Below are positions 20,890 through 23,110 of a stretch of 37,796 nt of DNA, piece by piece. The position numbers and the translations under genes were made by a program. This stretch comes from Alphaproteobacteria bacterium (GTDB taxonomy: Bacteria > Pseudomonadota > Alphaproteobacteria > Rhizobiales > Aestuariivirgaceae): NCBI GenBank assembly GCA_024279045.1, contig JAJRRZ010000027.1:1-37796 (forward strand), given 5' to 3'. The first letter of the stretch is position 1, and each line of letters opens with the position of its first letter. Below the pieces are notes generated by a model. That model had not been told where the DNA came from. It saw only the letters and a program-made list of their open reading frames with translations, and did not search any database.

Positions 20890-22050
20890 ATGCGGATCAT
20901 CACTGAAACGGCGGCGCTGCGCGATCTCTGCCGGGATCTCGCGGCGGAAGACTACATCACCGTGGATACTGAATTCATCCGCGAACGCACCTATTGGGCC
21001 AGGTTGTGCCTGATCCAGGTGGCCGGCGCACGCGAGGCGGTCATCATCGACCCGTTGGCCGAAGGCATCGACCTGTCGCCATTCTTCGACCTGCTGGCCG
21101 ATGAGAGGGTGCTGAAAGTGTTCCATGCCGGGCGGCAGGACGTGGAAATCTTCCATCATCTTGCCGGACGCATACCCGCGCCGTTGTTCGACACGCAGAT
21201 CGCCGCCATGGTCTGCGGCTTCGGCGATCAGGTGAGTTATGGCGCGCTGGTGGAAAGGCTCACCGGCGTGCGAATCGACAAGGGCTCGCGCTTCACCGAC
21301 TGGGCGCGCCGCCCGCTGTCGCAGCGGCAACTGGAGTATGCCCTGGCCGATGTTACGCACCTGCGCGAGGCCTACGAGAAGCTACGCGAGGAACTACGCC
21401 GCTCCGGGCGCGAACCCTGGCTGAAGGAAGAGCTGGCCATTCTCACCAGCCGTGAAACCTACGAACAGGACGTCGACGAGGCATGGCGGCGCATCAAATT
21501 TCGCCCGCGTGATGCGCGGCAACTGGCTTTGCTGCAGCGCCTGGCCCGCTGGCGCGAGGAGGAAGCCCAGCGCCGCGACCTACCGCGCCGCCGCATATTG
21601 AAGGACGAGGCCATTGTCGAGATCGCCAGTGAAATGCCACGCACCGAGAAGGCATTGGCCGCCTTGCGCAATGTCTCCGCCGATCAGGCCCGGAAGGGGG
21701 CTGGCAAGGCCATCGTGAAGCTGGTGGAGGAGGTGCTGGCCCTGCCAAAGGAACAACTTCCACAGCTGGCGAAACGCGAAAAGCCCCACCCGGAAGGCAC
21801 CCAGGCGCGCGCCGACATCCTGAAGTTGGCGCTCAAGATCGTCTGCGAACGAGAGAACATTGCACCGAAACTCCTTGCCTCCGCCGCCGACCTGGAAAAA
21901 CTGGCCGCCGGGCGCGAGGATCTGCCAGTGCTGAAGGGCTGGCGCCGCGAGGTTTTTGGCGATCTGGCATTGCAATTGCTGCGCGGCGAGCGGGTCATTG
22001 GCCTGAAAAGTGGCCGCCCCGCCATCCTGCCGGCCCGGGGTGAGTGCTGA
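20890..22050 (+). CDS. rnd: Ribonuclease D
   Basis: A 386-residue 3'-5' exoribonuclease that trims tRNA and other stable RNA precursors. The DEDDy catalytic set is complete: D26 and E28 in TVDTEFIRERTYWARLCLI, D84 in KVFHAGRQDVEIF, Y150 and D154 in LEYALADVTHL, corresponding to D28/E30/D85/Y151/D155 in E. coli. An HRDC RNA-binding domain follows at about 208-290. The length is normal for the family. GGCAGGCGGGC immediately precedes the ATG. It is followed by a gene-free stretch with two hairpin elements. Confidence 0.96.
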   Translation: MRIITETAALRDLCRDLAAEDYITVDTEFIRERTYWARLCLIQVAGAREAVIIDPLAEGIDLSPFFDLLADERVLKVFHAGRQDVEIFHHLAGRIPAPLFDTQIAAMVCGFGDQVSYGALVERLTGVRIDKGSRFTDWARRPLSQRQLEYALADVTHLREAYEKLREELRRSGREPWLKEELAILTSRETYEQDVDEAWRRIKFRPRDARQLALLQRLARWREEEAQRRDLPRRRILKDEAIVEIASEMPRTEKALAALRNVSADQARKGAGKAIVKLVEEVLALPKEQLPQLAKREKPHPEGTQARADILKLALKIVCERENIAPKLLASAADLEKLAAGREDLPVLKGWRREVFGDLALQLLRGERVIGLKSGRPAILPARGEC

Positions 22051-22185: not shown

Positions 22186-22348
22186 TGGGCCCGGGGCCCA
22201 TTAAGAGGCATGGTAGGTGCGTCATTTGCGAAAAATATCAGCGTTTTTTGCCCGCCGGGAATGCCTGTAGGTATTTCCAAGGGCAAAAAGGCGTTGATAT
22301 GCAGCATGAACGCCACAGATGCCGTAAAAATTTATGGGTCCTGTCCCA
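22186..22348. mobile_element. Hairpin element A: 163-bp MITE-like palindrome
   Basis: The element runs from TGGGCCCGGGGCCCAT to ATGGGTCCTGTCCCA, and its two halves are imperfect inverted copies over almost the whole length. Good inner pairing includes CGTTTTTTGCCC with GGGCAAAAAGGCG and GGAATGCC with GGTATTTCC. No transposase is encoded. Element B, 26 nt downstream, has exactly the same length and carries GATATGCAGC at the same offset (position 111 in both), so they belong to one family although many bases differ. It is most likely a non-autonomous miniature transposon. Confidence 0.7.
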
Positions 22349-22374
22349 AGGCAGGCGGGAAATCCCGAACATCT

Positions 22375-22537
22375 AGGGTCTGGTCTCAATAAATGAGTGC
22401 TTCTCATGGGCATTTTGGCAAAATAGCAGCGGCTTTTCGTTCGCAGGCAATAGTGGAGCTATTGGCAAGAACGAAAAACCGCCTGATATGCAGCCAAAAT
22501 GCCCATGGGGAGTGCTCAGGTATTGAGTCCAGACCCT
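22375..22537. mobile_element. Hairpin element B: 163-bp MITE-like palindrome flanked by CTAG
   Basis: The terminal inverted repeats AGGGTCTGGTCTCAATA and TATTGAGTCCAGACCCT match at 16 of 17 positions. Internally ATGGGCATTTTGGC pairs perfectly with GCCAAAATGCCCAT, CTTTTCGTTC with GAACGAAAA, and GCAATA with TATTGGC, so nearly all 163 bp fold into one stem. CT precedes and AG follows, so CTAG reads across both junctions, as at IS5-type insertions into a CTAG/TA target. There is no coding capacity. It lies about 60 nt upstream of gpt and may add a structured leader to its mRNA. Confidence 0.75.
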
Positions 22538-22597
22538 AGTGCAACACCTCTGAAATGGCTCGCCTGCACAAGGCGCAACATATGGAGAGAAAGGCAC

Positions 22598-23110
22598 ATG
22601 CAAAACACCGGGCCTGACCTGGACGAACGCTACCGCAAGGGGTTCCCTGTTTCGTGGGACCAGTTCCACCGGGATGCCCGCGCGCTGGCCTGGCGGCTGG
22701 CGGAGAAGGGCCCATTTCATGCAGTGCTGGCCATTACCCGAGGCGGGTTGGTGCCTGCGGCCATCGTCGCGCGCGAGCTTGACCTGCGCGACATCGAAAC
22801 CATTGGCATCGCTTCCTACGATTTCAGCAGGCAGGGCGAACTGAACATGCTGAAAAGGCCGGCGGAGAAATATCTGAAGGATGGCGGCGCCGGGGTGCTG
22901 GTGGTGGATGACCTGGTGGACACCGGCAAGACGCTGAAATTCACCCGCGAGCTCTTGCCGAACGCGCATTACGCCTGCGTTTATGCCAAGCCCGCCGGGG
23001 TGCAACTGGTGGATACTTTCATTACCGAGGTGTCGCAGGATACTTGGATTTTCCTGCCGTGGGACATGGCGCTGCAATTCGCGCCCCCCATCCGCGAAAG
23101 CGGCGCCTGA
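22598..23110 (+). CDS. gpt: Xanthine(-guanine) phosphoribosyltransferase Gpt
   Basis: A 170-residue type I phosphoribosyltransferase for purine salvage, converting xanthine or guanine plus PRPP to the nucleotide. It contains the PRPP loop [16 protein letters not shown]. The N-terminal [19 protein letters not shown] and [20 protein letters not shown] are typical of Gpt, as is the C-terminal [17 protein letters not shown]. The ATG with GAGAGAAAGG upstream is chosen. An in-frame ATG at 22499 would place the start inside hairpin element B, so it is unlikely. Confidence 0.93.

Follow-up and report, generated by a model that had tools for sequence, protein, structure and literature searches.

Two adjacent hairpins between rnd and gpt-like genes as probable IS5-type MITEs of a high-copy family

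The window, that is, the whole 37,796-nt stretch of DNA analyzed here, carries two hairpin elements, A and B, in the space between a ribonuclease D-like gene and a gpt-like phosphoribosyltransferase gene (Table 1). The preliminary description had already recognized this two-hairpin layout, which stands, while the ends that it assigned are 1 to 3 nt off and the true units measure about 161 nt. Both stretches are strong hairpins when compared with dinucleotide shuffles, with a minimum free energy (MFE) of −76.3 for A (z = −6.0) and of −105.3 for B (z = −14.1). As described, GATATGCAGC lies at offset 111 of each element, corresponding to position 22296 in A and 22485 in B, and CTAG spans both junctions of B.

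Table 1. Features of the rnd-gpt interval, with positions counted from the first base of the window
Feature	Coordinates	Strand	Basis
Upstream gene, ribonuclease D-like (rnd)	20890..22050	+	PF01612 and HRDC
Element A, old, degenerate copy of the A subfamily	22188..22347	+	Covariance model placement; TA flanks lost (TG / AA)
TA target duplication left of B, inside CTAG 22373-22376	22374..22375	.	Sequence
Element B, near-consensus B-subfamily copy, 161 bp, ends GGGTCTGGTCTCAATAAA ... TATTGAGTCCAGACCC	22376..22536	+	Covariance model placement; 93-99% identical copies
TA target duplication right of B, inside CTAG 22536-22539	22537..22538	.	Sequence
Downstream gene, phosphoribosyltransferase, gpt-like	22598..23110	+	PF00156

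The model-placed ends leave a gap of 28 nt between A and B. B retains both TAs and full CTAG junctions, whereas the ends of A are mutated and its TAs are gone, which suggests that A is the older, decayed insertion and that the young element B arrived later. Given this difference in decay and the 28-nt gap, A and B seem to have inserted separately and at different times, not in one tandem event.

A and B had been proposed to be diverged members of one family, and they do align far better than shuffled palindromes. Their global alignment score of 117 compares with 40 ± 8.8 for a pair-shuffled palindrome null (none of 300 as high), and with 53.5 ± 8.6 when the outer 17 pairs are held fixed (0/300). 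The two subfamily consensus sequences give a score of 143 against 42 ± 8.5 under pair shuffling and 62 ± 9.6 with the outer 17 pairs kept (0/300 in each case). The A consensus is 161 bp long with ends GGCTCAGGACTCATAAAGAGG ... AAATTTATGGGTCCTGAGCC, and the B consensus has ends GGGTCTGGTCTCAATAAATG ... TATTGAGTCCAGACCC; the units of both kinds are 161 bp, with ends complementary over ∼17 bp and no transposase inside. Among the pairs sharing coordinates in both consensus folds, 17 of 42 differ on both sides. The compensatory change suspected from A and B recurs among 31 related copies from several species, in which 96.6% of pair cells show standard pairing and two-sided changes are seen in 20 of 46 pairs. 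The covariation score of 0.376 compares with 0.165 in shuffled data, and sliding the partners destroys the signal (≤0.09).

The source genome is a MAG-like assembly of 2.23 Mb in 300 contigs, many of which end inside the elements, making any count, all of them taken from searches, a lower bound. By BLAST, A has 43 matches (70 to 88% identity apart from A itself) and B matches at 41 places (93 to 99% identity apart from B itself), and the terminal-repeat pattern TAGGSTCNGGNCTCA occurs at 115 sites compared to none for a reversed control. We built a covariance model from 31 copies and applied it to 11 genomes of the genus, which is probably Thermopetrobacter, and to 60 genomes of the family. All 11 genus genomes were positive, with at least 150 matches in the source genome (both strands counted), 110 in G001, 56 in G005, 32 in G003, 26 in G004, 22 in G010, 15 in G009, 11 in G008, 10 in G006, and 2 each in G002 and G007. 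Outside the genus, the only matches among the 60 family genomes were four weak ones, all in one genome (best E value, 8e-9), and plasmid and viral collections gave no match. Judged by these sequence relationships, A and B are subfamilies of one high-copy MITE family.

Both flanks carry TA in 50 of the 94 full-length copies with flanks, and most of the other copies differ by one transition in one TA. Read with its neighbors, the target in copies with both TAs is CTAG (22), CTAA (12), TTAG (10), or TTAA (2), which together make YTAR. Each subfamily is matched by an empty site bearing only one TA: B is inserted inside a copy of A (L037 versus L103, 94.5% identity over 91 bp) and A inside a transposase gene (L020 versus L143); in a third case (L095 versus L137 and L128) the flanks are no longer exact. 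Where a target duplication has decayed at the junctions of the 94 elements, CCAG often stands in place of CTAG; VSP-like repair would change the site in this direction (CTAGG to CCAGG), although this is only a hint. CTAG itself is scarce, with 7 occurrences in the whole window (by extrapolation, ∼420 genome-wide) where composition predicts 126 for the window, making it ∼18 times rarer than predicted.

IS5-family elements with the same ends as the MITEs are present in the source genome. The A-type IS is ∼870 bp long and its ends, GGCTCAGGACCCATAAA and GGCTCAGGACTCATAA, are the two ends of A (16 to 17 bp) with their order swapped; the match extends to the T/C difference at position 11. Both ends are seen on different contigs, the left one as GGCTCAGGACCCATAAAATGG on G000:C242 and the other as inverted GGCTCAGGACTCATAA on C94 and C146. 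Its transposase is encoded in two overlapping frames around AAAAAGGGGGG, scores above the cut-off of the IS5 model NF033580 in both halves, and also exceeds the cut-offs of PF13340 and PF01609. The B-type IS is represented by seven contig-end copies that start with GGGTCTGGTCTCAATAAA, the left end of B (18 bp), followed by MSELFWLSDGQWARIQP, where an IS5-like transposase open reading frame begins; this short piece gives only a weak Pfam match. At other contig ends, GGCTCCGGACTCAATTG is a right end that encodes an IS5-like C terminus and is probably the other end of this IS; for the putative parent of B, the left end is thus observed and the right end is one that we infer. The assembly breaks inside these IS, and each was pieced together from different contigs, the B-type from short end fragments only. 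Taken from their sequences, the A-type and B-type IS, which are IS5-family elements of the IS427 type, are putative parents of the MITEs; the A-type IS fits the IS427 group in its length, 2-bp duplication, and split frame. The MITE interior derives from neither of them.

Other candidates for the mover were rejected. The IS630/Tc1 elements also target CTAG with duplication of TA, but no DDE_3 protein is encoded in the source genome. An IS5-type IS with the end GGCTCTGTGGACGAATTTT adjoins B at C255 and A at C214 and is not a parent, its ends differing beyond the first bases. The IS5-type IS at C255 and C214, with its end read as GGCTCTGTGGACGAATTTTATCC, was seen at six places (G000:C255, C214, C32, C146, C12, and C67; loci L089, L092, L090, L113, L096, and L097), inserted at TA directly beside B in C255 and beside A in C214. 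In the transposase of the A-type IS, B (C94) and the GGCTCTGTGGACGAATTTTATCC-ended IS (C146) have hit an identical position.

The reading of the hairpins as IS5-type MITEs, offered from the two elements alone, has gained from the many copies, the TA duplications in YTAR, the empty sites, and the IS elements with the same ends. A and B are, with little doubt, MITEs from two related subfamilies, non-coding and non-autonomous, that would be moved in trans by IS5-family (IS427-type) transposases and that insert at the TA of YTAR, preferably CTAG, with duplication of the TA. The hairpin pair is, in this respect, an ordinary kind of mobile DNA. That the palindromes are instead of the REP/BIME or RAYT type, spread by an IS200/IS605 mechanism and not by a DDE transposase, is scarcely credible: they are present in high copy, mostly intergenic (3 of 62 copies possibly lie inside genes in a rough open reading frame context), and found in tandem arrays, as such palindromes would be, but they have long terminal inverted repeats, a TA duplication, a 161-bp unit, and matching IS5 ends.

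In the mechanism that we propose for the MITEs, IS5-family transposases would recognize the terminal inverted repeats and mobilize the elements in trans, and insertion would take place at the TA within YTAR, with CTAG preferred and the TA duplicated. An element with G as its first base and C as its last would, on entering CTAG, leave CTAG at both junctions (TA-G...C-TA), and this regenerated, rare target could then receive tandem insertions. A hundred elements would add ∼200 target sites, which alone predicts frequent tandems. Exact element-TA-element pairs are indeed common, for instance, on C241, C233, C262, C282, C74 (twice), C216, C1, and C205 and on C377 of G001; they combine A with A, A with B, B with B, and MITE with IS, in every orientation, with exactly one TA between the partners. 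We suggest that tandems are frequent because the G...C ends rebuild a CTAG that is otherwise depleted. The earlier notion of a tandem landing site therefore holds in its general form and fails for A and B themselves, which are 28 nt apart. Some of these tandems are A-B pairs (C241, C233, C74, C216, and C262, among others), as would be expected if the neighbors A and B inserted jointly, as a single composite unit. Such a unit is very improbable, since partners are found in all combinations and orientations with exactly one TA between them, the pair described here joins a decayed A to an intact B across a 28-nt gap, and we saw no other locus with the A-28 nt-B arrangement.

What was not expected is a hairpin core unusually well conserved within the genus, combined with ends that are specific to each subfamily. 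Core identity between species reaches 91% (G003 and G004), in contrast to the differing ends, although the cores of G003 and G009 are only 68% identical; for comparison, four-fold degenerate sites of gpt are 51 to 74% identical among the other species and 39 to 68% identical to the source genome. Constraint, horizontal movement, or renewal by copying are candidate readings of this likeness. It is conceivable, though we consider it rather unlikely, that the hairpin serves as a "chassis," with a core kept for a function of its own (as a transposition enhancer, a host-factor site, or an RNA) and terminal repeats re-fitted to the resident IS5 transposase. What points to it in the sequences is the match of the ends to the A-type and B-type IS, the identity of the core set against that of the gpt four-fold sites, and the end GGGCGTGGACTCATAAA of the G003 MITEs, which resembles the end GGGCGGGACTCATAAA of an IS5 remnant in G003 itself. 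We also noted that the left-arm block GATGCCAGCGGCATTTTCGC is identical in aligned representatives of five species (L241, L247, L250, L251, and L252, from G003, G009, G005, G010, and G004, respectively) despite their differing terminal repeats. Mini-MITEs of ∼66 bp, with the terminal repeats but no core (L081, positions 1424 to 1491; L053, positions 1369 to 1435), indicate that spreading does not strictly require the core.

Genus-wide conservation of the core alongside differing terminal repeats, the very stable folds, and real covariation in the stem would also suit hairpins that act mainly as RNA structures before gpt (a terminator, an mRNA stability element, or a small RNA) and are kept for it, and RNase cleavage is known for MITEs of the Correia and ERIC types (PMC10969869). 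The compensatory pattern is real, yet a DNA palindrome copied by transposition can yield the same covariation without RNA function. Rfam returned nothing at the gathering cut-off or even at an E value of 1, no promoter-like site was seen, and terminator-like sites are near chance (2 versus 0.8 ± 0.9 in shuffles). Copies lie in all gene orientations (28 co-directional, 12 divergent, and 10 convergent, in a rough open reading frame context). The relative G002 has no hairpin between rnd and gpt, which lie ∼110 bp from each other there, the flanks being too diverged for a base-level comparison of the empty site. The suggestion that the pair works as RNA found no support in these checks, and we regard it as improbable. 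We conclude that A and B are most likely selfish elements.

The literature searched contained no published report of such a MITE from Thermopetrobacter, and the family is thus, within that literature, an undescribed genus-wide one with likely parents, a target rule, and insertion sites. It offers a simple cause for MITE tandems, in that the ends rebuild a target otherwise depleted in the genome, and it may help in testing how MITE ends track changing transposases.

Among known systems, ERIC and RUP repeats are MITE-like as well, with a long hairpin and a conserved center; we know of no resident IS with ends matching those of ERIC, whereas same-end IS elements are present in the source genome here. 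REP sequences of RAYT systems are GTAG-tagged palindromes of 20 to 40 nt without target duplication, unlike the 161-bp unit and TA duplication of this family. Correia elements (NEMIS) of Neisseria duplicate TA and share with these MITEs the form of short, non-autonomous palindromes that are high copy, intergenic, and, as predicted here, moved in trans. They differ in their ends and host and carry promoters and an IHF site (PMC10969869), while the MITEs described here showed no promoter-like site. The closest likeness for the putative parents is to the IS427-group elements of Paracoccus, which are 832 to 865 bp long, mostly with 2-bp duplications and two overlapping frames (PMC3281130): the IS found here is ∼870 bp, with an IS5-family transposase in two overlapping frames, terminal repeats of ∼16 to 18 bp, and a 2-bp TA duplication. 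What sets the present family apart from the IS427 group and from IS5-family MITEs is a MITE interior unrelated to the IS interior.
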